Source: a virus
Length of the DNA stretch: 28,204 nucleotides
Reading direction: 5' to 3' (one strand)
Virus record (IMG/VR): IMGVR_UViG_3300045957_000033
Coordinates: 1-28,204 of that record
A model generated the notes under the pieces. That model had not been told where the DNA came from. It saw nothing but the letters and a program-made list of their open reading frames with translations, and ran no database searches. Positions 7,813 to 26,435 of this stretch are shown here, piece by piece (the stretch's first letter is position 1; every line of letters starts with the position of its first letter). The position numbers and the translations under genes were made by a program.

Positions 7813-7854
7813 ATTATTTTAAGAAATATTTAATCAACTAGTTTCTTTTTTAAG

Positions 7855-8229
7855 TTATTTCACAAAATCTTTAATAGAATACTTTCCTTTTTTAAGATGG
7901 TCTATAACCTGCATGTACTGATTGTAGTCATTTTCTTGCAAATCATGTAACTTATCGTTTGCCTTTTTAAGATCTTCGTTTGAATTATCCTTTCTAAGAA
8001 TGTCAATATTATTTATAGCCTCTAATACACTATAGATATCATCTTTTTTCTGTGCTTGCTTTGCTTTGCTTATAATGTCACGAGCCTTTTTATACGCCTC
8101 CTTATCGCTTGACTTTAAATCTTTTATAGCGTTTTCACAATTGTTCATCACCTCAGATAGCGGTTTTGAAGCTTCTTGTATTTTATTCAGCATTCCTGCC
8201 AAATTTTTGAAGGTATTAGGGTCTATCAT
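7855..8229 (-). CDS. Small all-helical protein of the tail-tip module (124 aa)
   Basis: The protein is almost wholly charged helix (MIDPNTFKNLAGMLNKIQEASKPLSE, then repeated K/D/E/A heptad-like segments) with one Cys and no Trp. It starts by ATGA overlap with the stop of the 8226-9995 gene, so it is translated together with the tail-tip protein. It could be a chaperone or a small structural helix bundle. No family recognised. The 42 bases after it (7813-7854) are AT-rich and hold no clear site. Confidence 0.6.
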   Translation of the reverse strand: MIDPNTFKNLAGMLNKIQEASKPLSEVMNNCENAIKDLKSSDKEAYKKARDIISKAKQAQKKDDIYSVLEAINNIDILRKDNSNEDLKKANDKLHDLQENDYNQYMQVIDHLKKGKYSIKDFVK

Positions 8230-9995
8230 GCTACAAATTTAGTCTCTTCTAAGCTATTTGCATATATGTGTTTCTCTCTCCATGTTTGAGTACTTGTGTT
8301 GTTCGCGCCATTTAGAGTCACGGTATACATTTCTGAAGACTCGGACTTATAATTTACAAATTTCGTATTTTTTACCAAATCTTTTAACTCGAATATAGAA
8401 ATAGGTACATTTTGCACATTTTCATGTATGCTTTCTTGTGCATTACTATTGTTTTCTACAAAAGATTTAGAAAGGGCATGGTATTTGGTATATAAAGCAT
8501 CTGCTCCAAGTATTTGCCTATGATTTTCAGGAATGACCCCCTCTTTTAAGTAAATCAACTTTGGAACTTGTGGAGATGGACCACCAATTTTCGCAGCTCC
8601 TACCCTATTTCCTACTAACTCTTTAAACTTACCTTTCTTACCTATTTGCTTTGCTAGTTTATCCGCCGTATCTGCAAGCCCTTCAACTACTTTTTCAAGA
8701 TTATTTAGCTTATCCTTTCTATTAATAAGCGCACAATTTATTATTTCTCGATTCAAGCCTTTTATAAGATCTTCGGAAGGTTCAGACCCTTTTACGGTTG
8801 TTTTTATCTCAACTGTAGTACCCGTAAAATTTCTGATTGTGAAAGAATCTGCGATATCTGTAATAAATTCTAACGTTTGCGTGCCGACCATATCCTCATA
8901 ATTATATGTTCTGTCTAGCACTTGTCCGCCAATATCTTTTTGTTTGTATTTAGCGTTTTGGAACCAAAAAGGATCCTCTGTATTTCGTAGAATTACTTTA
9001 TTATCTATTACAGATACACGGCCGTTTACTAGCTTTCTAGCTATTTCCAACATTTCAGAAACTATAAATCCAGAATCTTGAGCGTTTGGCAGCCCCTTAT
9101 CTATAGTTGCGGGTAAGGGGTTAAAATCAATAAATAAATTTTCGGAATTGTCATACGGCTTAGAGGCCATATAATACACATCCTTTAATATTTCTAAGTT
9201 GGTTTCAAACTCATAGCCCTTATATGCGAAAGCTTTAGAGAGTAAAGAAAAAAGGCTTTGAACTTTATTTATGTATACTGGAGATATTACAAGGCTTACA
9301 AGGTCGAATACAAGTTTAATAAGTAAGGATATCAAAAGGGCTGCATAAATAGCCTGTATGACAATTACAGCAATTTGATATATTACTCCAGCAGCCGGGC
9401 CAGTAGCGCCCGCCGAACTTATACCCAGAAGCGTAGCAATATTATTTGCAAGCTCTTTAATTAAAGCTATTGTTTTTTCAGCCAAGGTGTATATGGCTAA
9501 AATTAATAGTGCGACCTCAAGCGCGTTTGCCTCCTTTTCTATTACAAATCTTAAATCTGTATAATCTTTATCTGTAAATACTTTCTTAGACTCTAAAAAA
9601 CCATAGGTTGTTCCTTTAATATAATTTGAAAATTTGTCAATTCCTGACCTATCAACAAATTTTACATTAACTGCCCTAGGGTCGTTGCCCCCTTTTATAA
9701 AAGGCCCGATTTCTCTGTAATTTTGTGTAAGATCTAAAAAACCATCGAACCGAATAGTTTCTTTATTATCCGAAAATTCCAACGCAGCACTAAGACCCTT
9801 AAAAGATCTGCCTGAACGGTGATACTTAACTACCGCATCTTTTGCAGAATCAACCAAGATAAATTCTGAAATATCTAAAAGTAAATTATTTGTATTTTCT
9901 GCACGTTGAGCGGTTATAGTTATATCTTTCCAATTTAATGGCACGGGTTTTGACAACCCATCAATGAACATTTTTACATTATATCCTAAACTCAT
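8226..9995 (-). CDS. Distal tail / tail-tip protein with internal hydrophobic block (589 aa)
   Basis: Its position directly after the tape measure is that of distal-tail or tail-associated baseplate proteins. The N terminus is beta-rich (MSLGYNVKMFIDGLSKPVPLNWKDITIT...), as in distal-tail domains. Residues about 160-172 and 186-240 are strongly hydrophobic (ALLILAIYTLAEKT, then VIYQIAVIVIQAIYAALLIS and LLIKLVFDLVSLVISPVY), unusual for a soluble tail part. A mixed domain follows, with YKQKDIGGQVLDRTYNYED, and a Lys-rich helical stretch near 430-470. The hydrophobic block may insert into the host envelope during DNA delivery (inference). It overlaps its neighbours on both sides by ATGA. Confidence 0.7.
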   Translation of the reverse strand: MSLGYNVKMFIDGLSKPVPLNWKDITITAQRAENTNNLLLDISEFILVDSAKDAVVKYHRSGRSFKGLSAALEFSDNKETIRFDGFLDLTQNYREIGPFIKGGNDPRAVNVKFVDRSGIDKFSNYIKGTTYGFLESKKVFTDKDYTDLRFVIEKEANALEVALLILAIYTLAEKTIALIKELANNIATLLGISSAGATGPAAGVIYQIAVIVIQAIYAALLISLLIKLVFDLVSLVISPVYINKVQSLFSLLSKAFAYKGYEFETNLEILKDVYYMASKPYDNSENLFIDFNPLPATIDKGLPNAQDSGFIVSEMLEIARKLVNGRVSVIDNKVILRNTEDPFWFQNAKYKQKDIGGQVLDRTYNYEDMVGTQTLEFITDIADSFTIRNFTGTTVEIKTTVKGSEPSEDLIKGLNREIINCALINRKDKLNNLEKVVEGLADTADKLAKQIGKKGKFKELVGNRVGAAKIGGPSPQVPKLIYLKEGVIPENHRQILGADALYTKYHALSKSFVENNSNAQESIHENVQNVPISIFELKDLVKNTKFVNYKSESSEMYTVTLNGANNTSTQTWREKHIYANSLEETKFVA

Positions 9996-12900
9996 GATAT
10001 AAGATTTTTAGCCCTAACTACTAACTCATCACGCTTTTTGTATTCCTCATTCACGACCCTTATAAAACCAACTTGCTCGTGTGCTTGTACAGATTGTCGA
10101 GGAATATTACGACCGATTTCAGCACCCATGGCGTAAGGGTCTATGTTGTTTTTCACTACCACAGTTTGCGCCCCTTGGCTTTTCATCGTACTTGAGTGAA
10201 TAGGACTATTTGCAAGTACATTATCATGTAGTGCATTTACTAGCTCTTTATTACTCATGTTTGCAGGAATGAGGTCATTTAAAAATGTAGGGATAACTCG
10301 CTCTCCACCATCGAGACGAGCGATATATTTATCATTTTTAACCCATGGTATATGAGGTTGTCCCATGTCTTTTTCTACCCTGGTAGTACCTTTGTAAAAT
10401 CCTTGCAAAGACCCAATAGCTGCAATGAGAACATTAATATCAGTCAAAGTACTAGTAAGTGCATTATTAGGATCTTGGCTATCTAAATTAGAAGAATAAG
10501 CTTTCACGGCAGCCAAAGCAAATTCTACCCTTTTTTGTTGAGCTATTTCTTTTTGTCTTTGTAGCTCTAGTTCTCTTTGTCGCTTGTTAAGCTCTGTTAA
10601 AGAATCGTTAGCATCTTCGTTGCCTGCTTGAACTTGTGCGTTTAATTCACTTTGTCTTTGCGTAACTGCGCTTGCTTCGTCATCAATAGCTTTAATTCTT
10701 TGTGCAAAAATTTGGTCTGCCACTTTTTCAGAGAATGTGACAAAGTCGTTTAGTTGCTTTTTTCTTTCATCTAAGTATTTTTTATCCTCTTCTTTCTGTT
10801 TTTCATTAGCTTCCTTCTTTTCTTCTAAAAGCAACTCATTTAGTTGGATTTCGAGGTTTAGACGCTCGTTTGAAAACTCTGTTAGATCATTAATTCTATT
10901 TCTTAGATTCTCCTTTTCAAGTTCTTTTCTGTCATTTTCTAGTTTTTCAAAACGATCTTTTTCCTTACTTTCTAGCGCTTGTTGTTGTAGGTCTAATTCT
11001 TTTCTAAGCTCTAAATTTTCAATGTCAGACTCTTGAATTTCTGTATTAAGCTCCTTATTAGCTTCTAATAATTCACCTCGAAGTTTTACAGACTCTTTAA
11101 GTCTTTTTTCTTCAATTTCTCCCAGATCAGCACGGCGTATAATTTGCTGAATTTCAATCTCGTTTTGCGCATTGAGTATTTCATTTAGATCAATTGCGTT
11201 GATTTTCTCTTTTGCAACCTTCTTTTCAGAATCGCTTAAATCTTCGTTTAGATCAATAGATTTTCGTGCTTGGTCTTGAATATTGAGCAAAGATCTTTCT
11301 GAAAGCGACTGAATGATGCGTTGATTATCTTCATAAGCTTTCCTTCTTTGCTCTTGTGTGCTTCTGTCGCTTGTTGCTATTTTTTCGTTTAGAGCGAAAT
11401 TGAACTCTGAAAATTCCTCTATAATATCCTGTCTTTGCTCAAAGTCATCACGCGCCGTCTTTCTATTTTTCTCAGCTTGGTCTCTGGAGAAAGCTTCTTG
11501 ATCCGCTTCTTTTTCTCTTCTTTCTGCGAATGCTTGTGTAAACTCTTGTTCGGCTTGTGAAGATATTTCAAGGGCCAACGCTCTATCTCTTAATAGAGCA
11601 TTCAATTGCTCTCCTGTAGTTATTGCCCTTAAATCTGCAATTTCAACTGCGTTAGCCCTAGCTAGTTCAATTTTTATACCTTCAATGGTTAGCCTTTCTT
11701 TATCTCTAGCAAGTTTTGTTTCTCTTCTTGCGAACTCTTCAGCAGCTTCCCGAGCTTTTTCAACTGCTTTTTCACGAGTAAGGAAACCTAAAGTATCATC
11801 GTCGCTTATATCTTGTAATCTCTGTCGCTGGATGGCCAACCCAGCAAGCTGTCTTGTCTGCCTTTCAATTGATATCTCCGTTTGTAATTGCAGATCAATA
11901 AATTCTTGAGCTAAATCTATAGCCTCCCTTGTAGTTTTCCCGATATCCTCAAAAGCTTTGGAAATTTTTGAAACTCCTTGGGCTGCCAATTCGGATACAT
12001 TACCCAAATCTTCTTGTTTTTTATTTACTTCATCAAGCGCAGATTGGTATTGCTTTGTTGCGTCAGTGGTTTTACCGAAAAACTCCGCAACACTATCTAT
12101 TGCTTTAGATATAGATACTTGTGTTGTTAAAAACCCTTTTTGAATATCTAAAAAGAAAGACTTAAAAGAATTTATCGAAGCTTGTAAAACATCCTTAAAA
12201 CCATCAAATGAATTAATTAATGCGCGGAAAAACACTTTTATGGTCTCTGTAAAATTTGCAATTTCCTTTCTAAAATCTGCACTAGTTTTCCTAGAGGTAG
12301 CAAAAGCATCGCCAAGATTTGCAAACAAACCTAATAAAAATCCGATCCCAGCAGCTTTTATTGTTGCCCCAAGCCCTTTGAAGCCTTTTTGTAGTGTGTT
12401 TTGTTTATTTTTAGTCTCTTCTAAACCTTCCCCCAGTTCTTTTACTGTTCTGGTTTGTTGTCTTAATTCTCTTCTTAATTTCCGAAATTCCTTACCACTT
12501 TTTGCGCCTTGAGATGTCGCGTTGAGATATGCCTTTTCAAGTATATCAAGCTTTTTTTTCTGATCTTCAAAACTATCTGTCAAGCCCTCTGTAGCGCTCT
12601 TATAGTTTCCTATATTTAAAATTCTCTGTTGATCTACAGAACTATTTTCGCGGAGAGAATCCGTAAGCTCATCAATTCGGTCATTTACTTCTTTTAGTTC
12701 GTCACTTCCCAAATCGAGACCGTCAGCGACAACTTTAAGTGCGGATATTTGCTCTTTTAATTCACCCTTAGATTTAATTACCTCTTTTTCTAAGGTTAAT
12801 TCCGCTTGAAGATTTTTACGTCTCTGTCTATCCTCTTTTTGTTGCTGTATCTTGTTTTTTAGTTCTTCATCTGTAAGTTTTTCCTTTTGCTTTTTACGCT

Positions 12901-13276
12901 TTATTTCTTGTTCTTCTGCCTTTTTTAGCTTTTTAGCATTGTCTATTTCTGTTTTATCATTCTGGAGTTTTAGCTTTCGTGCTTTTTCGCGCTCTTGTTC
13001 AAGCTTTGCAATTTCTTTTTCAACTTGTCCCTTTTTCCTCTGTACCTCTATAAGTTCTTTTTCAAGCTTAATTTCAGCCTGTAAAATTTGTTCTAACTTT
13101 TTTTGATCACCTACTTTGGAAACGTCAAGCGATTTTAAAGAGGTAGAAAATTGTTCGCCTAGGCCTTTAATTATACCCTCGGTCTTAATCAAAAGTGCGT
13201 TAAAATTCTCTAGGCTCTCAATCTGAGACTCAAGGAACTTTTCTTGCGTTACGTCAGAACTTTTTATTACTGCCAT
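9992..13276 (-). CDS. Tail tape measure protein (1094 aa)
   Basis: It is the longest gene in the tail module and encodes an almost continuous coiled coil, very rich in K, E, Q, R and L (long QQEE/RKEL-type runs at about 20-300 and 430-920). A Gly/Ala-rich hydrophobic patch (KGLGATIKAAGIGFLLGLF, about 300-325) is typical of tape measures. The C terminus is less charged and includes PHIPWVKNDKYIARLDGGER, a segment of the kind often found at tape-measure ends. It sets tail length; at about 0.15 nm per residue this predicts roughly 160 nm. The ATG overlaps the end of the upstream gene by 10 bases. Confidence 0.93.
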   Translation of the reverse strand: MAVIKSSDVTQEKFLESQIESLENFNALLIKTEGIIKGLGEQFSTSLKSLDVSKVGDQKKLEQILQAEIKLEKELIEVQRKKGQVEKEIAKLEQEREKARKLKLQNDKTEIDNAKKLKKAEEQEIKRKKQKEKLTDEELKNKIQQQKEDRQRRKNLQAELTLEKEVIKSKGELKEQISALKVVADGLDLGSDELKEVNDRIDELTDSLRENSSVDQQRILNIGNYKSATEGLTDSFEDQKKKLDILEKAYLNATSQGAKSGKEFRKLRRELRQQTRTVKELGEGLEETKNKQNTLQKGFKGLGATIKAAGIGFLLGLFANLGDAFATSRKTSADFRKEIANFTETIKVFFRALINSFDGFKDVLQASINSFKSFFLDIQKGFLTTQVSISKAIDSVAEFFGKTTDATKQYQSALDEVNKKQEDLGNVSELAAQGVSKISKAFEDIGKTTREAIDLAQEFIDLQLQTEISIERQTRQLAGLAIQRQRLQDISDDDTLGFLTREKAVEKAREAAEEFARRETKLARDKERLTIEGIKIELARANAVEIADLRAITTGEQLNALLRDRALALEISSQAEQEFTQAFAERREKEADQEAFSRDQAEKNRKTARDDFEQRQDIIEEFSEFNFALNEKIATSDRSTQEQRRKAYEDNQRIIQSLSERSLLNIQDQARKSIDLNEDLSDSEKKVAKEKINAIDLNEILNAQNEIEIQQIIRRADLGEIEEKRLKESVKLRGELLEANKELNTEIQESDIENLELRKELDLQQQALESKEKDRFEKLENDRKELEKENLRNRINDLTEFSNERLNLEIQLNELLLEEKKEANEKQKEEDKKYLDERKKQLNDFVTFSEKVADQIFAQRIKAIDDEASAVTQRQSELNAQVQAGNEDANDSLTELNKRQRELELQRQKEIAQQKRVEFALAAVKAYSSNLDSQDPNNALTSTLTDINVLIAAIGSLQGFYKGTTRVEKDMGQPHIPWVKNDKYIARLDGGERVIPTFLNDLIPANMSNKELVNALHDNVLANSPIHSSTMKSQGAQTVVVKNNIDPYAMGAEIGRNIPRQSVQAHEQVGFIRVVNEEYKKRDELVVRAKNLIS

Positions 13277-13758
13277 GACTTACAAAGATTGTAATAATCA
13301 ATTACACGGGTGGCTTTTGGGTCTATGTATATTTTTATGCCTTTTACTAATACTGCCCATTGTTTGCCCGCGGTGGTCTCGACCTCTGGTTTTAAGGCTT
13401 TCAACTCTTCTTTTAATGCTTCGGTCCGACCTAATAACCACAATTTTTTAGGATTTTGGAGGAAATCACAAAGAATCTCAGCCAAGCGTTTTTTTACTGC
13501 AAATTGAACACGCAAGGCTGATTCAATGCCAAATTCGTCATACAAACTTTGCAACAACCTACTATGTGCAGCGTCTAAATATTGTGCCTCTTCTAATGTC
13601 TCAATTTGCGTTCCTCGAAGTTTTTTTGAACTGTATATCTGCGTCAAATCACCCTTATCTAACATTTTATTCCACTGCTCGACATACATACTCTCGATGT
13701 CATCACGCAATTTTGGATAACTCTTTTCTGAGAAGTTTTTTAAGGGCTTCTTTGACAT
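13267..13758 (-). CDS. Putative tail assembly chaperone (163 aa)
   Basis: This soluble, mainly helical protein (ETLEEAQYLDAAHSRLLQSLYDEFGIESALRVQFAVKKRLAEIL) is encoded immediately upstream of the tape measure, where siphophages keep their tail assembly chaperones. Its 5' end overlaps the upstream gene by 56 bases and its 3' end overlaps the tape measure by 10. No slippery frameshift site is apparent, so the classical two-product arrangement is not shown. The role is inferred from position. Confidence 0.6.
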   Translation of the reverse strand: MSKKPLKNFSEKSYPKLRDDIESMYVEQWNKMLDKGDLTQIYSSKKLRGTQIETLEEAQYLDAAHSRLLQSLYDEFGIESALRVQFAVKKRLAEILCDFLQNPKKLWLLGRTEALKEELKALKPEVETTAGKQWAVLVKGIKIYIDPKATRVIDYYNLCKSWQ

Positions 13759-14170
13759 ATTGCCTATATACGTTTAAATTTTCCTCATTTAGACCAACAA
13801 CATTTTCACCCCATTCGTCAAGCAAATTTACACCACCAGGCTTGACGGGATCAACTATTATTTCAATTTCATCTATCCTAACTATAATTGTCCAAGAATC
13901 ATAAAACTCGAACGTATCCGCAAGTGTGACACGATCAAAGGGCAATCCTTGTCGCTTTTTATTTTCTACAGTGGAAGGAGCGTAGGCTCCCCCAATACTT
14001 TCTAGCGTCCTGCCTGTAGCGTCTTCGCCCTTATTGAATAATTGATCCTCTGTATTGAGCCTTATTATAAGCTCTTTCGATTCTATGCGACTATTGATGT
14101 CGAAAATTAAATTATCAACATTTTTAAAGAGAAATATAACCTCTTGTATTTTTCGCCTAGCATCGAGCAT
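13703..14170 (-). CDS. Tail completion / morphogenesis-type protein (155 aa)
   Basis: The central segment (LFNKGEDATGRTLESIGGAYAPSTVENKKRQGLPFDRVTLADTFEFYDSW) has the pattern of phage tail-completion or virion-morphogenesis proteins in Bacteroidota phages: a Gly-rich turn, a Tyr-x-Pro segment, a basic helix, and then a V-T-L-x-D-T strand before an aromatic strand. It ends in a basic helix (YRQYVKEALKKLLRKEL). It lies between tail-tube and tape-measure genes, in line with a joining role in tail assembly. The assignment is by pattern recognition only. Confidence 0.55.
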   Translation of the reverse strand: MLDARRKIQEVIFLFKNVDNLIFDINSRIESKELIIRLNTEDQLFNKGEDATGRTLESIGGAYAPSTVENKKRQGLPFDRVTLADTFEFYDSWTIIVRIDEIEIIVDPVKPGGVNLLDEWGENVVGLNEENLNVYRQYVKEALKKLLRKELSKIA

Positions 14171-14185: not shown

Positions 14186-14404
14186 TTATTCTGCCCCTTT
14201 TTTATCAACCTTTTTTTCAACTATTTTCTTGACTTCCTGCTTTTTCTCAGGCTCTGATTCTTTCTGTAGAGCTTTTTGTATTTCTTTCCACTTATCTTCA
14301 AGGAAATAAAATTTTTTTCGATAGTTTAGAAAGAAATCTTCCTTAGTCATACCCTTAAAAATAGATAAGGCATATGACCCTTTGTGACCTTTAATAAATT
14401 TCAT
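14186..14404 (-). CDS. Small lysine-rich tail-module protein (72 aa)
   Basis: The protein starts MKFIKGHKGSYALSIFKGMTKEDFFLNYRKKF and ends in a Lys/Glu-rich tail (KKQEVKKIVEKKVDKKG). Its ATG overlaps the TAA of the tail-tube candidate (TAATG), so the two are coupled. Small charged proteins beside tube genes may be assembly chaperones, but no family is recognised. Confidence 0.6.
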   Translation of the reverse strand: MKFIKGHKGSYALSIFKGMTKEDFFLNYRKKFYFLEDKWKEIQKALQKESEPEKKQEVKKIVEKKVDKKGAE

Positions 14405-15357
14405 TATGCAATCAATTTTGATCTTTCAATAATTTCATAACACTTGTCAAGAGTTGTTGTTCCTCCGCTTACTGTCAGCGTTCCACTTCCCCCAGTGGTA
14501 TCGTGTGTGATCAAGTAAATACCATTAATATCGGTATCCTCTACAGAAGAAATAACCAAAGGTGAACCATTTAATTCAATAGTCCAATCAGTCGCATCAT
14601 TTAGCCCGACAGCTTTATCTATTTGCCTAGCGAGACCAAAGCAAGTATTTGCATATACTCGCGTTTCAGTGTCCGACACTATTTCAATACCATCATTTAC
14701 ACCATTGTCTTTAGGATCTACTGTAATAATTCCAGTTGCTGCCAAGAAATTGGCGTCCGTTTCTGCGTAAAGGATGTTTTCAGGTAGATTTTCGCGCCCA
14801 AACTCATATACGATTTCTATGTAAGGAACATTTGCAGCGCTAGAAGGGAACCAACGAGTTGAAAAAGACGCTTCGTCTATATATCGCGGAAATAGCTGCG
14901 ACATATCACCAATCAAATCTTGACCTATAAGCTTATTATTTTCATCTGCGAAAATAAAACCACCTCTACGGCATTTCACTAAAGCGTCAATTTTCGCTTT
15001 GTATTGTGGAGGCACATTCGAAATACGTGCATTCATCGTCATTACACCCGTAATTGTTATCGCTGTGGTGCCGTCGTCAAAACTTTCTGTCGTATTATCT
15101 CCAGGCGCTTCAACTTGGTTTTTTAATTTTCCACCTATCGGGTACAATCTAGCCAGTGGATCGGGATGTTTTTCGTAAGCATCCAAATCAGCTTGTGTAA
15201 TCCTTCCCTCACTGTCGAAATCCGAAGCCTTAAAAGAATTTAGTTCTCCAGCAGAGTTTTTTTCAGGCCAATAAAACATTTTTTCAGCCCTGTCTGCTAT
15301 ACATCTAAGTGTGGTTAACCCACTATTTGCGCCTTTCGACGCACATGCACAACTCAT
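14404..15357 (-). CDS. Major tail tube protein candidate (317 aa)
   Basis: The protein begins with a short Cys cluster (MSCACASKGANSG). It continues with a beta-rich domain (PLARLYPIGGKLKNQVEAPGD..., TTAITITGVMTMNARI, GGFIFADENNKLIG) and ends in a second beta domain that looks Ig-like (TDWTIELNGSPLVISSVEDT, GGSGTLTVSGGTTTLDKCY). Position before the tape measure, size and composition fit a tail tube subunit with a C-terminal decoration domain. This is by context and general look; no diagnostic motif is available. It could instead be a head-tail joining protein. Confidence 0.6.
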   Translation of the reverse strand: MSCACASKGANSGLTTLRCIADRAEKMFYWPEKNSAGELNSFKASDFDSEGRITQADLDAYEKHPDPLARLYPIGGKLKNQVEAPGDNTTESFDDGTTAITITGVMTMNARISNVPPQYKAKIDALVKCRRGGFIFADENNKLIGQDLIGDMSQLFPRYIDEASFSTRWFPSSAANVPYIEIVYEFGRENLPENILYAETDANFLAATGIITVDPKDNGVNDGIEIVSDTETRVYANTCFGLARQIDKAVGLNDATDWTIELNGSPLVISSVEDTDINGIYLITHDTTGGSGTLTVSGGTTTLDKCYEIIERSKLIA

Positions 15358-15358
15358 T

Positions 15359-16084
15359 TTAGTTACATTTTTTGTTAAACATTGTGTCGCAATCGCAACA
15401 ATCTTTTAAGGGGATATTTAACCTTAATTCAACTCCGCTTAATTCCTCCCCTAGAATCGAAGCAGTGTTACCTTTATTCTGTTCAAATTTACCAAACCTT
15501 ACACGATCTATGGTACTAAATCGCTCTATATCATCAACTCCTTTGTATTTGTCTAAATTATAAATGAATTGGTCGATTAATGATTTCATTGGTCCAATCA
15601 CATTAATACGATGATCCGAGTTAAGCCACTGCTGGTCCTGTGATATATCCAAGAAGAATAATCTTACTTGAGGCGTAGCAATTATCAGGCTGGTTTCATC
15701 ATTGTTGTATGGCGTTTCGAATGTTTCCAGCACCCATATAAATGGATGGTGGTCAAAGCCGTTTTGGGTCATTTGTGCCAATTCCTCATTAGCGAATCTA
15801 GGTGTATCAACTAATAATGTAGGTGGTGGCAAATTGAAATCATTTTCGATTAATGGACCACCCGACAATATTAGTTGTTTATCCTGTATAAAAGATTCAA
15901 CTCTATAAACATTGCCCTCATATTCGAATTTTGAACATTCTCGTAAGTGCTGAGTATCACATGTTTCAACTGTAAATGTGTTATCCTCATTGTCAAAAGT
16001 ATTATAAACATTGACAGTAATTGTCATGTTTTCAACTACTTTTTTTATAATGGTGACAATATCGGTTTTCTTTACACTTAGCAC
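15359..16084 (-). CDS. Head-tail joining / tail terminator candidate (241 aa, GTG start)
   Basis: The frame opens with GTG at 16084, 10 bases after the upstream stop; the first ATG (16027) would remove 19 residues of a probable amphipathic helix, so GTG is preferred. The body is beta-rich (MTITVNVYNTFDNEDNTFTV, YRVESFIQDKQLILSGGPL). A conserved-looking middle (HHPFIWVLETFETPYN, LIIATPQVRLFFLDIS, INVIGPMKSLIDQFI) and a Cys-rich end (DCCDCDTMFNKKC) follow. It lies next to the tail-tube candidate and is similar in size to proteins at the head-tail boundary. Family not recognised. Confidence 0.6.
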   Translation of the reverse strand: MLSVKKTDIVTIIKKVVENMTITVNVYNTFDNEDNTFTVETCDTQHLRECSKFEYEGNVYRVESFIQDKQLILSGGPLIENDFNLPPPTLLVDTPRFANEELAQMTQNGFDHHPFIWVLETFETPYNNDETSLIIATPQVRLFFLDISQDQQWLNSDHRINVIGPMKSLIDQFIYNLDKYKGVDDIERFSTIDRVRFGKFEQNKGNTASILGEELSGVELRLNIPLKDCCDCDTMFNKKCN

Positions 16085-16094
16085 TTATCGAATA

Positions 16095-16946
16095 TTATAG
16101 TACTTTTAACGTATTTTCATAGCCTAATTTAAAAAATTCTTCGTTTTGTTCTTTAGTTACAATAAAGTAAAATGACAATAATGTGCGTGGAGCATGTACT
16201 TTTCTAACTCTTACCCCCTGAATTGGTAAACCATCTAAATACTTTTCATCATCCACACTTACCCGAAAAAGTAACATTTGCTTGCCTAACACTAGCTTTT
16301 TAAGAGGATTTCGAGGGGTTGAAACAGGTGTGTATTTTTCTGGTCTTGCAAAAATCGCAACAATATCGTTAGTGGTTAAATATTTTTCACCTATTTCTAT
16401 TGCAAGATGTGAAGAGTAGGAGCCATCAATATAATACCGGTTATTTATTTTTACCTCTTTTGTGTATCCTGGAATTGATGCAGAAGCTCTACACCTCAAA
16501 AGCGCTTCGTTTAAATTTGTGCAATCTTTAAGATTAAAAATCACCTCTTTATTTGTGCTAAATTCGGTTGAGTTAACATATATTGGCGGTAGATTGCTGT
16601 TTATATATTTCCTCCACTGCTCTTCGGAGATGTGTTTTTTAATAAACTTATCAATTCCTTTATATCCCCAAAATTCGCCACGGCCGATGATCATATTAAA
16701 AAAAGCAACCAATATGCCCCATACGCTATATATATTTCTATCGAAAATTGTTTTTGCGTCAAAATTAAGTTTTCGGGCTTTTTCTAAGTTATTTGTAACT
16801 AAAAATAATGAAGCGTAAGCGGTACCAGATACAGCAATAATTTCTTGAGGAAATCCCCAATTTTCTATACATGCTATTGCACCTCCTACATTATGTTTTA
16901 CCTTATCTGTAGTGCCTGAAAGGAATAAACTATATTTTCTATTCAT
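16095..16946 (-). CDS. Patatin-like protein, apparently lacking the catalytic serine (283 aa)
   Basis: The layout is that of patatin-like phospholipases: an N-terminal strand-loop-helix (SLFLSGTTDKVKHNVGGAIA), a strand entering the nucleophile elbow (EIIAVSGTAYASLFLV), then RCRASASIPGYTKEVKINNR and YYIDGSYSSHLAIEIG. In active patatins the elbow is GxSxG and the oxyanion loop is Gly-rich. Here the elbow reads GTAYA (residues 41-45, Ala43 where Ser is expected) and the loop reads GTTD. The Asp-Gly of the catalytic dyad (Asp174-Gly175) and the SAS-IPG segment are kept. So the fold is probably patatin, but lipolytic activity is doubtful. It sits among virion genes, coupled by ATGA to the gene before it, so a structural or regulatory use is possible. 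Confidence 0.8.
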   Translation of the reverse strand: MNRKYSLFLSGTTDKVKHNVGGAIACIENWGFPQEIIAVSGTAYASLFLVTNNLEKARKLNFDAKTIFDRNIYSVWGILVAFFNMIIGRGEFWGYKGIDKFIKKHISEEQWRKYINSNLPPIYVNSTEFSTNKEVIFNLKDCTNLNEALLRCRASASIPGYTKEVKINNRYYIDGSYSSHLAIEIGEKYLTTNDIVAIFARPEKYTPVSTPRNPLKKLVLGKQMLLFRVSVDDEKYLDGLPIQGVRVRKVHAPRTLLSFYFIVTKEQNEEFFKLGYENTLKVL

Positions 16947-17638
16947 AATTGTGATGCGTTTACAATTGAAATTAATATTTGTCGTATGGTTGCCCCGCCT
17001 TGGGATGGTACCACGTTATCTAGCCAAGGGTAGCCAGTCAAAACGAAAATTGCGCCTTCCAATTCAGCTCTTGCATTACCTTCTATAAACCCAGTTATTT
17101 CGTCAGATAGTGACAAAGCCAACGGTTTCGCTAAGTCCTCCGCTTCTGGCACATTTGAAATAGTTCCTTTTGGCACCTCTGTTTCTATAAGCAGACCCAC
17201 CAACGAGGCTTTCACACGATCCATTACATTATGCCGGCGCCGTACACCTTCCGCGATTGCTGTAACTGCGTCATAGTGTTTTACTTTAGTAGAAATACAA
17301 ACCTCATCCCCGTTTTCTCTATAAAAACAGAATTGTTCTGTTCTACTTAAAAGACTGTTGTCTGAGCCGATTTGATAAGATATATCTATCTTCTTTATAA
17401 GATTATTATAAGCTATAGAGCGAATTAAAAACGGTTGTGCAATTGTTACTACATCATTCTCGTAAATTTCTGTAGAGATCTTAAAGCCCTTAGCATCTAA
17501 AGTGTGTTTTTCCGCAAATCTAATTGTTACATCTTTTTTGTCGTCGATAGCTAAGGGATCGAATCTGTTTACACCTTCTCTTGTAAAATTGTAAATTTTA
17601 AAGGGTGATTCTTCAATATTTTGATTTGGTAGTATCAT
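16943..17638 (-). CDS. Hypothetical structural-region protein (231 aa)
   Basis: The N-terminal half has short beta strands (MILPNQNIEESPFKIYNFTREGV, DKKDVTIRFAEKHTLDAKGF) and a hydrophobic segment ending VVTIAQPFLIRSIAYN. The C-terminal half is more helical (HYDAVTAIAEGVRRRHNVMD), with ISNVPEAEDLAKPLALSL later. It overlaps the fibre-like gene upstream and the patatin-like gene downstream by ATGA, so all three are co-translated. No family is recognised. Position between head and tail genes suggests a neck or accessory virion part. Confidence 0.65.
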   Translation of the reverse strand: MILPNQNIEESPFKIYNFTREGVNRFDPLAIDDKKDVTIRFAEKHTLDAKGFKISTEIYENDVVTIAQPFLIRSIAYNNLIKKIDISYQIGSDNSLLSRTEQFCFYRENGDEVCISTKVKHYDAVTAIAEGVRRRHNVMDRVKASLVGLLIETEVPKGTISNVPEAEDLAKPLALSLSDEITGFIEGNARAELEGAIFVLTGYPWLDNVVPSQGGATIRQILISIVNASQL

Positions 17639-19752: not shown

Positions 19753-21240
19753 TTATACTTTTTCGATTGCAGTTAAAGCTGTTTCAACATCACCACATTT
19801 CATAAATGCGTTTGCCCAGTTGTTGGGAACCAGAAAATTTAATCTTTCATAGCCTTTAAGAGTTCCGATTTCCTTCTCCCAATTATCTTTATTCTCGAAA
19901 GAAGTTTCAAGCACAAGTTGTTCACGATCAACTATTTCACCCCTAGTTGTATCCATTACATAGCACTGATTTTGAGGTACTAAAGGCGACCACATAACCA
20001 TTAATGTTCCGTTTATAAATGGAATACCATTTACAATACTAATTCTAGCATCAATATAGTTATTGTTTAAGTCCTTTCTTGATTGCACCATTGTAAACCA
20101 GTCGCAACGATTTACAACCGCCACATTTGGATTATATGCGTTTTGCTGTCCTAACTCATAAATTTGCGTATCCATGCCGATAAGCAGGTCAACTAAAGTA
20201 GGATCTTGAATTGAGGCTGATATATCACAAACTGGATTTACTGCGCTAAATTCAGAGGCTGTTGAATCAATAGAAAACGTTTCTTCATCAGCTCCAGTTC
20301 CAAGAAATATTTGCTGATCAATCTTTAGGGCTAAAGACTGGTTTAACAATCTTTGTATCCTAGACTGCATAAAACGATAATCAGACACAAAATGACGACA
20401 AAAATCTATCATATCTTTGATTATCTTCGTTTCAATTGACCTCACAATAAGCGTTTCTTTAGTAGTAGAGGTTACGGCAGCACATTTAGCAACATTTTGG
20501 GCGTTTCTATCAACTGTTTGCTGCTCTGAATACTTGAGAAATTCTGTGTTCACTGGTATTGTAGAAAACAACTGGCGAAACATTGGCATTCTAACTGGAA
20601 TATCCACTACTCCCGGTCTAAATTGCGCAAAATCTGAACCCTCCGTAATATCACCATAAGTTTGGGTAGCCTTTTGAATAATTACCTCATGACTGCTTTT
20701 TGCCTTGTTTGCCTCAGAAAATTTTGTAATATTTTCATCCCACTTTTTTCTTAGAGCATCTTTGAATTTAGGTGAATCTTTCGAAATACCCTTCTTTTTA
20801 AGCTCTGCAATTTCTTTCTCTTGAGCCTTCATAGCGTCGCGGAGGTCTTTATGTGTAGAATTGTTTATTAAAGTGATCTGCCTTTCAAGCTCTGCAATAG
20901 TTTTTGCATTGTCTTGATCACTTTTTTCTAACTCTTCAATTCTACTTTCGTAATACTCGACCTCAGCATCTTTGTATTTAAGCATTTCCGATTTCTCAAG
21001 CTTTGATACTTCTTCTGCTTTCATCTTCTTAAAATTGCCTTCTGCATCTATCCACACTAAAGTATTTAGTAAAGATGCTGATACAATTTCAGCATTTCTA
21101 GCTAAAATAAATGAGGCTACAAAACTAATTGTTATGCCAAACAAGAAAGATGCTGAGTTTCCAAATGCCGCGAATAAAACTGCACCTAGTGCAATTCCCG
21201 CAACTGTCTTAAATAATGTGCTTTTAAATAACTGTTTCAT
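19753..21240 (-). CDS. Major capsid protein precursor, HK97-like, with N-terminal membrane-like helices and coiled coil (495 aa)
   Basis: From about residue 185 the sequence reads as an HK97-fold capsid protein: a scaffold-to-core junction (QKATQTYGDITEGSDFAQF), a paired-strand region, a segment of the E..I...M-DFCRHFVSDYRFMQSRI type before a long helix, then LKIDQQIFLGTGADEET, where the family usually has D-x-Q-I-L-x-G-x-G. Residues 73-150 form a charged coiled coil (EELEKSDQDNAKTIAELERQI), likely a built-in scaffold domain removed by the protease encoded just upstream. Residues 12-27 and 31-47 are two strongly hydrophobic helices. The ATG at 21240 is chosen because it lies 16 bases after the protease stop; the longer frame start at 21330 would overlap that gene. 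Confidence 0.87.
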   Translation of the reverse strand: MKQLFKSTLFKTVAGIALGAVLFAAFGNSASFLFGITISFVASFILARNAEIVSASLLNTLVWIDAEGNFKKMKAEEVSKLEKSEMLKYKDAEVEYYESRIEELEKSDQDNAKTIAELERQITLINNSTHKDLRDAMKAQEKEIAELKKKGISKDSPKFKDALRKKWDENITKFSEANKAKSSHEVIIQKATQTYGDITEGSDFAQFRPGVVDIPVRMPMFRQLFSTIPVNTEFLKYSEQQTVDRNAQNVAKCAAVTSTTKETLIVRSIETKIIKDMIDFCRHFVSDYRFMQSRIQRLLNQSLALKIDQQIFLGTGADEETFSIDSTASEFSAVNPVCDISASIQDPTLVDLLIGMDTQIYELGQQNAYNPNVAVVNRCDWFTMVQSRKDLNNNYIDARISIVNGIPFINGTLMVMWSPLVPQNQCYVMDTTRGEIVDREQLVLETSFENKDNWEKEIGTLKGYERLNFLVPNNWANAFMKCGDVETALTAIEKV

Positions 21241-21256
21241 GATTAATTTTTCAAAG

Positions 21257-22066
21257 TTAAAGTATTGCCAATAATGTATTATCTTCTTCATCAGCAGAAT
21301 TTTCTGGCTGTTGCTCTGTGGGATCTTCACCCGGCAGACCTTTTACATTATTGTCTAAAGTTGGTGTGAGTTCGTTAGACCCGAACAACACAGCACTATT
21401 TTCAATTAATTTAATTTCTTGAACTACCCAGAAGAAACCTTGTTTATCGGCTTTTTCTTTATTTATTACTTGAGGGTAATATTTATTCCAGAAATCTAAT
21501 TCTTTTTCGTAATCTTCATCATTTATAGCTAATTCGAGCTTGACATATTGAAGTCCGATTGAATGTTGATTTATCCGACCTTGCTTGTACTGATTAAAAA
21601 CAATTTCGTTATAAGATTTTATTATATCAGTCAAAAAAATGAGAGATTCTGTCGTTCCAACTCCTGAAATCCCAAGCTCTTGTAAAGTTACATTAGTTGA
21701 AAATATATCAACTACCTCACCTACTTTTGCATCAATTCTATGAATATGGTCGTGTAGATGTGGTATGAAGCTCTTTCTTTCTTGAATTGATTTAGCCCAG
21801 CAATTTGGCAACAACATATCTAAATGAGAGTCTATCCAATTTGCAGTGTTAGCAACTACTTTTACTCTTAACCTGTCCACATCCTCTTGAACAGGTGTAT
21901 TTGACTTATTGATATCTTTTTTAGAGTGAATAATTGAAGGTGAAGAAATAAAGCTTTCTGAAAAAATTGGCATTGACTTTTTCTGAGAAATCAAAGTTTT
22001 TTTGTTCTCAATCAAATATTTATGCAGATCTTTTTTGTTATTGAAGTCGGGTAACTTTATTCTCAT
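21257..22066 (-). CDS. Prohead maturation protease (269 aa)
   Basis: Prohead serine proteases have a conserved His and a later Ser in an [S/H]-S-I-G strand. Here PHLHDHIHRIDAKVGEVVD (residues 102-120) offers the His and INQHSIGLQYVKLEL places Ser169 in the expected H-S-I-G context. The later EIKLIENSAVLFGSNE matches the E..L...A segment that closes the protease core. The first ~65 residues are basic and probably flexible. The gene lies between portal and capsid genes, the standard place, and would cleave the coiled-coil segment of the capsid precursor. It starts by ATGA overlap with the 33-aa ORF. Confidence 0.85.
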   Translation of the reverse strand: MRIKLPDFNNKKDLHKYLIENKKTLISQKKSMPIFSESFISSPSIIHSKKDINKSNTPVQEDVDRLRVKVVANTANWIDSHLDMLLPNCWAKSIQERKSFIPHLHDHIHRIDAKVGEVVDIFSTNVTLQELGISGVGTTESLIFLTDIIKSYNEIVFNQYKQGRINQHSIGLQYVKLELAINDEDYEKELDFWNKYYPQVINKEKADKQGFFWVVQEIKLIENSAVLFGSNELTPTLDNNVKGLPGEDPTEQQPENSADEEDNTLLAIL

Positions 22067-23407: not shown

Positions 23408-23439
23408 CAAATATACAAATTAATCAACATAATGTTCAA
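23408..23439 (-). promoter_or_regulatory. Internal promoter before the portal gene
   Basis: Read on the minus strand: TTG at 23439-23437, a spacer of 21, then TATATTTG at 23415-23408, an exact -7 consensus (TAnnTTTG). The portal ATG follows 17 bases later. It overlaps the end of TerL. It could let head genes be transcribed independently of the terminase. Confidence 0.55.
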
Positions 23440-25864
23440 AGCTACATTTTTCAATAACTCCTGTTGCAACATCCGCGATGTCATGGAATTTAGCGCGACC
23501 GTTTCTAGGATATTTGGTTAAGTGTGCGTAAGCTTCAGGCCATCGAGTATCCCATCCTTGGGGAAACAGTAACCTTCTTTGAACTACTGCCGAATTGGTA
23601 TAAATGCGAGCGAACTTGTTTTCACCTTGATGAAACCAATCACAATAAATACCATCATTTGACAACTTTTCTACATTTCTTGCGTAGGCCTTCCCACCGT
23701 TATTGCTTTCTACGTCGTTTATAGAAGGTTTATGGAGGTTGAAAGCTTCGGCAACTTTTAACTCGCTAGTTTCGGCAGATTCTTGTGTATAAACAATATC
23801 TAAGATATAGATAAAAGGGTTGTTTTCGTCTTCTGGAATACCATAAATGAATGTACATAAATAATCATCGCCTTGGTCTGCTACATCTGTGTATGACTTT
23901 ATAACGCGAAATTTAGGTAAAGTAGAGTAAGTACCAAACCCTTTGTACATTCGCCCCTCTTTATTTTCTGGGTTGCCTTGGTAGAGGGAATCAAACTTTA
24001 TAGGGTCGAGTTCTTGTATTTCTTTAAGCTTCTTTAGGCTGTGCCTTTCTGGGTAAAGTGGCTCGCCTGGTTCTCGCGGATCCATCCATGTTGGAGGACC
24101 TTCTTTTATTGCTGGAAAATTTATCTTTAAATATTTTTCGTCTCCACAAGCTTCCAAGGCAAGCTCTAAACTTTCGAAATCTGAGGCATTTATCACATGC
24201 CCCTTTTGCTCCAGCCTTCCAACAATGTCATTATCATCCCATCTAGTGAAGACAATTAATTCTTGAGAATCGTTATGCCCACGTGTTTTTGACACTGTGA
24301 CGAACCAATCCCATACACGTTCCGAAATAGTTGGGCTAGTCGCTTCCTTCCAGTCTTTGTATAGATCGTCCATAATTTGAACATCTATTGTTTCACTAGT
24401 CAGATCTCCACCTACCCCAACCGCTTTTACCTTACCGTGGCTATCTATTACCTCAAATTCTGCTTGAGTATTTATCCAACCACTGGATGTTACAACGTTT
24501 TTAGAGTTTATGCGAGTTTCTGGAAATATGGCTGAATATGCACTTTGATTTATAGTTCGCTTTATATCTCGATTGAACTTTTCTGCAATTTTCCCTTTGT
24601 ATGAAGCTATGCCTATTTTTTTGTTTTTATCCCTACCTAATATGTAACTAGGTAGTTTCCTGGTACTCCCCTCCGAGTTATGAGTAGGAATTAAATCATA
24701 ACCAGCTAAATACATACCCCCTTCAACATGTATGCAATTTCCTTTAACTATTTTTGGTTCACCTCCAAAACTTTTAATGAAAAATTTTCTTTTATCATCT
24801 CGATCTTTTGTACTCTTATTAGATAGACGATATTGCTTTCTTTCAAGGTTAAATACTTTATCATCTCTATTAGGGTTAAAACCTATCCTAACCTTTTTGC
24901 CTACACATTTTTTATTTAGATAAGCATCATAAATCTTATATCTACTCTTGTATCCTAGTGATCTGATTAATACATGAACATCTTTGGCTAATTGCGACTT
25001 TTTTTGACTAAACTCACAATTACCCCTTTTATCTACATATCCGTCTGTATCCATCAAGCCCCGTAAAAGCTCAATCCTTTGATCATGTGAGGATAGCAAG
25101 TATTCTATTGGTATGTGCTTATTTTGTATTAAACCTGATATCCTCAATCTCTTTGAAAGACCTTCAATAAGAACTCTGTATACTCCTGGTTTTACCTCCT
25201 TGTGAGAGCCTAATTTTTTAAAGTGTTCAATATCTTCTTTTCCTACTGTTAAAACACCTTGCCTAGAATGGCCATCTCCAAGCCAGCAACCTAAAATGTA
25301 TGGATCTATAGGCAATTCTTTTTGTTCAATATCAAGTGAAGGAGAAATATCTATACTTGGGCTTCTTCTGTTTCTCTTTTCAAAAATATCACCTGCTTCT
25401 AACGTTTTCTTTACCCTTCCTTTCTTATCATCATAATCTACATTTATACTCCATAAATGCTCCTTTGAACACAATATTTTATTTCCATCATTAAAAGTCA
25501 TTTCTTGAACACTCCAATCATAAATACCAGTATTCCCTAAGACTCTTTTAGGCTTACCATCCTGTCCAAAAACTATATCTTTAGTGGTTAAATCGCCATG
25601 GTTTTTCCATCCTTTAGTGGTTAAAACAGGAGTATTTGAAGGTAATAATTTCCCGTGCTGAGGTGGGACCGTGATAATAAGCTTTTTGATTACCCCCTTA
25701 GCGAAAAGATCGAGTATCTTATAATATTGCTTGTGAAACTTAGAAAGAACTAACTGCCCATCTGTCCAAGTGTCTTCAATAAAGTATTGAAAATTATGTT
25801 TAGCTGCTGCAAAAAGTTGATTGTAAAGCAGATTTTCAAGATTTCTCACATCACTTCCCAGCAT
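23420..25864 (-). CDS. Terminase large subunit interrupted by an intein (814 aa precursor, about 490 aa after splicing)
   Basis: The ATG at 25864 overlaps the TerS end; a TTG nine bases upstream is also possible. Residues 67-72 (PPQHGK) plus Ser397 form the Walker A loop, cut after the Lys by a 324-residue intein. Walker B is IMDD (Asp499/Asp500), followed by VFTRWDDNDIVGRL, the C-motif/coupling segment of the family. The RNase-H-like nuclease has Asp660 (YTDVAD), Glu719 (DVESNNGG) and Asp795/Asp798 (KFHDIADVATG). After splicing the P-loop reads PPQHGKSEGSTRKLP, a normal TerL sequence. The protein packages DNA with TerS and the portal. Confidence 0.93.
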   Translation of the reverse strand: MLGSDVRNLENLLYNQLFAAAKHNFQYFIEDTWTDGQLVLSKFHKQYYKILDLFAKGVIKKLIITVPPQHGKLLPSNTPVLTTKGWKNHGDLTTKDIVFGQDGKPKRVLGNTGIYDWSVQEMTFNDGNKILCSKEHLWSINVDYDDKKGRVKKTLEAGDIFEKRNRRSPSIDISPSLDIEQKELPIDPYILGCWLGDGHSRQGVLTVGKEDIEHFKKLGSHKEVKPGVYRVLIEGLSKRLRISGLIQNKHIPIEYLLSSHDQRIELLRGLMDTDGYVDKRGNCEFSQKKSQLAKDVHVLIRSLGYKSRYKIYDAYLNKKCVGKKVRIGFNPNRDDKVFNLERKQYRLSNKSTKDRDDKRKFFIKSFGGEPKIVKGNCIHVEGGMYLAGYDLIPTHNSEGSTRKLPSYILGRDKNKKIGIASYKGKIAEKFNRDIKRTINQSAYSAIFPETRINSKNVVTSSGWINTQAEFEVIDSHGKVKAVGVGGDLTSETIDVQIMDDLYKDWKEATSPTISERVWDWFVTVSKTRGHNDSQELIVFTRWDDNDIVGRLEQKGHVINASDFESLELALEACGDEKYLKINFPAIKEGPPTWMDPREPGEPLYPERHSLKKLKEIQELDPIKFDSLYQGNPENKEGRMYKGFGTYSTLPKFRVIKSYTDVADQGDDYLCTFIYGIPEDENNPFIYILDIVYTQESAETSELKVAEAFNLHKPSINDVESNNGGKAYARNVEKLSNDGIYCDWFHQGENKFARIYTNSAVVQRRLLFPQGWDTRWPEAYAHLTKYPRNGRAKFHDIADVATGVIEKCSFEHYVD
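24677..25648 (-). other. Class 3-type intein with LAGLIDADG endonuclease motifs inside terminase
   Basis: This 324-residue insert spans residues 73-396 of the 814-aa precursor and lies exactly between GK and S of the Walker A loop. It begins LLPSNTPVLTTKGW, so position 1 is Leu rather than Cys/Ser, and ends IPTHN before Ser397. The class 3 signature is present: Trp138 in block B (CSKEHLW, two residues after His136), Cys377 in block F (GNCIHVE) and Thr394 in block G (PTHN). Two LAGLIDADG-like motifs, LGCWLGDGH (about 191-199) and LLRGLMDTDG (266-275), each with acidic residues (Asp197; Asp272, Asp274), indicate a homing endonuclease domain. Whether splicing is efficient cannot be seen. Confidence 0.88.
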
Positions 25865-26435
25865 GCCGTTCAATCATTTTTTGATACAATATGCTTATTT
25901 GCTCGAAACGCTCTTTTTCGCTTAATCCGTCACCATGATCTTCTTTTGGAGGCAAAAGCCTATCCAGTAAATTATTTATAGCACTAACTTTATTGTGAAA
26001 TTTCAGCTTTGTAATTGTTTCGCCGTCTCGATTAGTTTTTACGTCGATCTCAGAGATTGCATGCCTAGTGAGTTTTGGCATATTCGTAACATGTAATATC
26101 TTTTTGTTGTCGTCAAAAAGCGTTGCAGGATCAAAAACAGCTATTGCATTAAGTTCCTTTAGTAGTCGGGTATAGTCAATTACCATATCGTCAAAATTAT
26201 CTGCTTCTATATGGTGTTTTGATCTTACCACCACATCTCCATTATCCTGGAGAACAGCATTTAGCGTGCCTCTACTAATATCAATGTGTTCTTTTACCTC
26301 TGGATCCTTTAAAAGTTTGTTTGCTGTTCGGTATGCGGAGGATTTAGAATATCCCACCTCTATTGCTGCTTTTGTTTTATCAAGCCCTTTTGCTATCAGT
26401 TCAGCAAATTTTTTTCTTTTGTAATTTAGAGCCAT
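25851..26435 (-). CDS. Terminase small subunit (194 aa)
   Basis: The N-terminal helix-turn-helix segment (FAELIAKGLDKTKAAIEVGY, then KSSAYRTANKLLKDPEVKEHI) is the standard TerS DNA-binding pattern, with A-A-I-x-V-G-Y-S and a later L-L-K-D-P-E-V. The middle contains ISEIDVKTNRDGETITKLKFHNKVSAINNLLDRL, also typical of this family. The first frame start is TTG at 26441 but ATG at 26435 is more likely. TerS recognises phage DNA and guides TerL, whose gene overlaps it by a few bases. Confidence 0.93.
   Translation of the reverse strand: MALNYKRKKFAELIAKGLDKTKAAIEVGYSKSSAYRTANKLLKDPEVKEHIDISRGTLNAVLQDNGDVVVRSKHHIEADNFDDMVIDYTRLLKELNAIAVFDPATLFDDNKKILHVTNMPKLTRHAISEIDVKTNRDGETITKLKFHNKVSAINNLLDRLLPPKEDHGDGLSEKERFEQISILYQKMIERHAGK

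Follow-up and report, generated by a model that had tools for sequence, protein, structure and literature searches.

The 283-residue protein encoded at positions 16095–16946 (minus strand) of the window, i.e., the whole 28,204-nucleotide stretch of the metagenomic virus record IMGVR_UViG_3300045957_000033, is by sequence comparison and structural modeling a member of the Patatin family (PF01734) with a patatin fold, and its nucleophile position is probably occupied by Ser40. We propose that it is a divergent, late-expressed and membrane-active patatin, probably still catalytic through Ser40 and Asp174, that would serve in lysis, or in entry should it be packaged, a proposal to which we give about an even chance. 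The intact ORF, the position in the operon, the patatin fold and the retention of the Asp-Gly pair are directly established, and the gene is a real and divergent one, whose interest so far lies in its variant active site rather than in any pseudoenzyme status.

The family assignment made in the preliminary description is borne out by a Pfam match of 35 bits, against a curated cut-off of 27.7 (E = 2.2e-8), and by the AlphaFold2 model (mean pLDDT 80.9, pTM 0.82; input alignment of 13 sequences), for which Foldseek searches of the PDB returned CapV, CapE, PlpD and patatin-17 (Pat17) with E-values down to 7e-12 and query TM-scores of 0.54–0.70, CapV and CapE being the best matches. The BFVD matches are viral patatin-like proteins, the best of them from an uncultured Caudovirales phage (TM-score 0.83). 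An AlphaFold model computed without an alignment was unusable (pLDDT 36), and PHROGs returned no family for the protein. The sequence landmarks that had been read from the ORF, i.e., SGTTDK, GTAYA, SASIPG and YIDGS, are all present in that order.

The gene lies between head and tail genes on the same strand, which upholds its earlier placement inside a virion operon. The terminase-to-tail genes of the 28.2-kb record are all on the minus strand, and run from the small and large terminase, portal and capsid genes through several connector-like proteins of unknown family to the patatin-like gene, followed by unknown proteins, a tail protein and the probable tape measure. The major capsid protein (19753–21330, minus strand; Pfam Phage_capsid, 6e-11) is encoded upstream of the patatin-like gene in this run, and the phrog_6195 tail protein (13703–14170, minus strand; 2.4e-20) downstream, as is the probable tape measure protein (9992–13276, minus strand; 1094 residues), which is assigned by its length, its position and a weak TMP_2 match (0.0024) below the cut-off of that family. 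The ATG of the patatin-like ORF, whose coordinates include the stop codon, overlaps the stop of the gene at 16943–17638 (minus strand, no family match) by four bases (ATGA), and the gene at 15359–16084 (minus strand, no significant family match) begins with GTG 10 bases past the patatin stop. Because of this overlap, the short downstream gap and GC3 close to that of the neighbors, as is also the overall GC, we regard the gene as an integral part of the run; a recently acquired foreign gene with its own promoter is not favored, given the neighbor-like GC3 and the start that overlaps the upstream gene. In the capsid ORF, the HK97-type domain is preceded by a long N-terminal extension that includes a hydrophobic segment and a stretch resembling a coiled coil, and the true start of the ORF may be further in. 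A two-copy 41-base tandem repeat lies between two tail-region genes at 7814–7896.

The host is probably a member of the Bacteroidota, since the protein of 8226–9995 is similar to one found in Flavobacterium phages, among them phage 1/32, and the closest counterparts of the large terminase come from a human-faecal phage and from phages of Porphyromonas, Bacteroides and Elizabethkingia. The large terminase gene (23420–25873, minus strand) contains an intein of about 324 residues with a LAGLIDADG domain at 24677–25648, which splits the Walker A motif (PPQHGK|S). Position 1 of the intein is a residue other than Cys, and a Cys stands ahead of the C-terminal block, which suggests a class 3 intein; an apparent insert occupies the same Walker A place in the terminase of a further phage (L081). 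At the record end, a 27-base repeat that encodes (M/K/R)PTPTPV(D/E)T occurs 13 times within positions 1–347, and this array would be either the end of an assembly or a linker of low complexity.

The preliminary description took the GTAYA stretch (16812–16826, minus strand) for the GxSxG site and concluded that Ala replaces the catalytic Ser. The stretch is present, but most alignments, the posteriors and the spacing favor a Ser three residues earlier, in the predicted nucleophile elbow A38-V39-S40-G41-T42 (16821–16835, minus strand; Ser40 codon 16827–16829), and the substitution is probably a register error. A literal GxSxG is absent from both registers, which read AVSGT and GTAYA, respectively. 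Ser40 falls in the nucleophile column when the protein is aligned with its two jumbo-phage relatives (alignment A1), with a Lutibacter patatin added (A3) and with nine further viral patatins (A4), and likewise in four MAFFT modes with 43 patatins. Posteriors were obtained by a purpose-written forward-backward calculation, in which the alignment is forced from near the profile start to near the profile end. They amount to 0.978 for Ser40 and 0.016 for Ala43 with 78 patatins, to 0.966 and 0.017 with the phage patatins alone, and to 0.97 for Ser40 with the two jumbo-phage proteins as profile; across phage and broad profiles the range for Ser40 is 0.94–0.98, with Ala43 at 0.05 at most. Because aligners reward any Ser, the calculation was repeated with the nucleophile column made neutral, which gave 0.58 for Ser40 versus 0.31 for Ala43 (78 patatins), 0.62 versus 0.18 (phage patatins) and 0.83 versus 0.03 (jumbo-phage pair).

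In all 70 scorable patatins, the catalytic Ser follows the first G-loop Gly at a distance of 28–31 residues; Ser40 lies at 29 and Ala43 at 32. The chance of finding a Ser somewhere within the permitted four-residue spacing is about 1 in 4, as estimated from residue frequencies. In the model, residues 35–39 form a strand, 40–41 a turn and 42–50 a helix, i.e., the layout of a nucleophile elbow for Ser40, although the model does not constitute independent support, since its input alignment already had Ser40 in register. The earlier suggestion of another nucleophile near GTAYA thus holds insofar as a candidate exists, but this is Ser40 and not, as then supposed, Ser46, which is rejected because it sits within the model helix 42–50.

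Beyond the nucleophile, Asp174-Gly175 aligns with the catalytic Asp column with a posterior of 0.999–1.0, so that the Asp-Gly pair is intact as first described. In the motif D174-G175-S176 (16419–16427, minus strand; DGG or DGA in patatins) the Asp and first Gly are invariant in 41–43 relatives, and the second Gly is replaced by Ser only here. The ASASIPG motif (residues 154–160; 16467–16487, minus strand) is conserved, with Pro159 belonging to the invariants of alignment A4 together with G11, Ser40, Asp174, Gly175 and Gly275. The G-loop/oxyanion region S10-G11-T12-T13-D14-K15 (16902–16919, minus strand; SGGGxK/R in patatins) is eroded, as had been noticed: the second and third Gly are missing, and G11-T12-T13-D14-K15 departs from the Gly-rich GGGx(K/R) loop. 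In the favored register, four near-invariant positions are scored as altered, and every one of them is otherwise a Gly: G12T (Gly in 41/41 relatives), G38A (39/42), G42T (42/42) and G176S (43/43). The elbow replacements, Ala and Thr, are both small, and the second elbow Gly is dispensable in the superfamily, since the elbow consensus of cytosolic phospholipase A2 is GXSGS (PMC5485470); loss of the second and third G-loop Gly is harder to reconcile with normal catalysis. With several active-site glycines replaced, the protein may be either an atypical enzyme or a former enzyme. Its tip branch, by far the longest in the tree, is about six times the median (3.21 versus 0.53 changes per site), as expected under relaxed or changed constraint. 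A strongly hydrophobic segment, VWGILVAFFNMII (residues 75–87; 16686–16724, minus strand), has a mean Kyte-Doolittle value of 2.32 versus 0.6–1.9 in the relatives examined, and is modeled as a helix (residues 75–86) in a region of low confidence.

Single-sequence scans of IMG/VR with the patatin-like protein and with the portal gave no relative, and profile scans gave only two jumbo-phage types on few contigs. A terminase scan of IMG/VR recovered 26 related phages, none of which carries the patatin or its neighbor genes; searches of phage collections with the proteins of 16943–17638 and 14404–15357, which belong to the same gene run, returned nothing, and the patatin-like protein as sole query had no match in 250 flavobacterial-family genomes at a threshold of 1e-7. 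In 36 of 395 Bacteroidota genomes, a three-row profile detected a chromosomal clade (L082–L096) of patatins of about 300 residues whose motifs are intact; these are kin of the jumbo-phage patatins and at times form tandem pairs (L094). A scan of IMG/VR that used just the C-terminal halves as queries, and thereby kept the nucleophile out of the selection, yielded 28 loci. In these and the earlier loci, the nucleophile column holds a Ser flanked by Gly on both sides in 38/38 scorable phage rows, and DGG is present in 41/41, counts in which a few contigs are entered twice, so that independent phages are somewhat fewer. Since the scorable phage rows all keep GxSxG and DGG, the glycine loss is peculiar to the window. 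The loci L097–L124 delineate a phage patatin family of about 286 residues with GxSxG intact where scorable, several members of which lie beside or near tail sheath, fiber or spike genes. Tail-adjacent phage patatins are found next to tail sheath and tail fiber genes (L116), a tail sheath gene (L117), tail fiber genes (L098 and LR756500) and a tail-spike-like gene (L119); the patatin of L113 lies among replication genes.

The replaced glycines are also what would be expected if the patatin fold had been retained in a non-catalytic role, be it in the virion, in assembly or as a scaffold, with an active site that is decaying with or without Ser40, an explanation that we consider possible, if somewhat doubtful. 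The exceptionally long tip branch, the tight embedding of the gene between head and tail genes and the lack of a close homologue in our searches are in line with it, whereas the retention of both Ser40 and Asp174 despite divergence over most of the protein, and the small size of the residues introduced at the elbow, speak against it. Furthermore, GxSxG is present in every one of the roughly 38 phage patatins that could be scored, the majority of which were chosen independently of the nucleophile, and inactive patatins are therefore not a recurrent phage theme. That catalysis has been lost and the fold recruited as a structural or assembly part of the neck or tail of the virion is, taken by itself, unlikely. 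One form of the non-catalytic explanation, whose probability overlaps with that of the whole, places Ala43 of GTAYA at the nucleophile position and makes the protein a true Ser-to-Ala pseudoenzyme. GTAYAS does resemble GTSAGA and GTSTGS by eye, and, at variance with most homologue alignments, which put a conserved Ser at the nucleophile position, one MAFFT run with the chromosomal flavobacterial clade chose Ala43, as did profiles built from that clade only (Ala43 0.63, Ser40 0.17). This register, however, requires an insertion ahead of the elbow, a deletion behind it, a spacing that is unseen in the 70 patatins and a nucleophile-position residue inside the model helix, and its posterior is low with phage and broad profiles; we regard it as quite improbable.

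It is highly improbable that the protein is a counter-defense decoy, i.e., a degenerate patatin of the CapV/CapE type by which the CBASS phospholipase effectors of the host are poisoned or mimicked. CapV and CapE are its best fold matches in the PDB and CBASS lipase models give weak matches to the jumbo-phage relatives, but the window protein itself matches no PADLOC or NCBIfam CBASS model, the core is common to all patatins, and the gene lies in a late virion operon, not among early genes. No CD-NTase was found among the neighboring genes in the family searches run, Pfam and PHROGs included.

The proposal of a divergent but active patatin draws on the register of Ser40 and Asp174, the fold, the invariants that are kept, the tail-adjacent patatins of other phages, and the GC/GC3 values and gene overlap; it is weakened by the four replaced glycines, the long tip branch, the flavobacterial-clade profiles, the possibility of a chance Ser and the dependence of the model on its input alignment. 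A patatin-fold protein co-expressed with head and tail genes would here present the elbow A-V-Ser40-G-T, of the form A/G-x-S-G-(S/T) and similar to the GxSGS of cytosolic phospholipase A2, with Asp174 as the dyad partner of Ser40, and would most likely act as an acyl hydrolase on membrane lipids with a rebuilt oxyanion loop (SGTTDK). Its action, the timing and substrate of which we infer, would come late, in lysis or egress as proposed for the phage WO patatin, or in entry if the protein is carried in the virion. Phage patatins have hardly been studied, and that of phage WO has been proposed to replace an endolysin. If an A-x-S-G-T elbow without the usual oxyanion glycines is active, it shows how far the patatin site can be rebuilt; if it is inactive, the protein is an example of an enzyme turned virion part. 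The phage patatin family collected here, with several tail-adjacent members and intact motifs where scorable, makes a role in lysis or entry testable.

Among known proteins, the jumbo-phage patatins LR756500 and LR756504 (L021/L022) are the best phage sequence matches (22–25% identity overall). They belong to the same length class and share with the window protein the SG..xK loop and the YYxDG and IF(S/A)RPE motifs, and in LR756500 the patatin gene comes after tail-fiber genes; unlike the window protein, they retain GTSAG/GISAG, SGGSTK and DGG. The IMG/VR phage patatins of about 286 residues likewise consist of the patatin domain alone and are similar in length and C-terminal plan, but differ in that GxSxG, GG and DGG are intact in every scorable member, at about 20% identity to the window protein. 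PlpD, CapV, CapE and patatin-17, which have the canonical GxSxG, share the fold and differ in architecture and role. In cytosolic phospholipase A2, as in the window protein, Gly and then a small hydroxyl residue come after the Ser (SGS versus SGT); that enzyme is, however, only a remote fold match (Foldseek E = 3e-3), and the window protein is not a member of that family. Although a marine megaphage paper presents its own patatin as the first from a phage (PMC9723777), that of phage WO had already been described (PMC5062602). In phage WO of Wolbachia, the patatin gene lies directly upstream of the tail module and has been proposed to encode a lytic enzyme or to form part of a lytic cassette (PMC9203015). 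It differs from the window gene in its adjacent holin-like gene and its host, and resembles it as a phage gene near tail genes (PMC9203015), the likeness being one of gene position.
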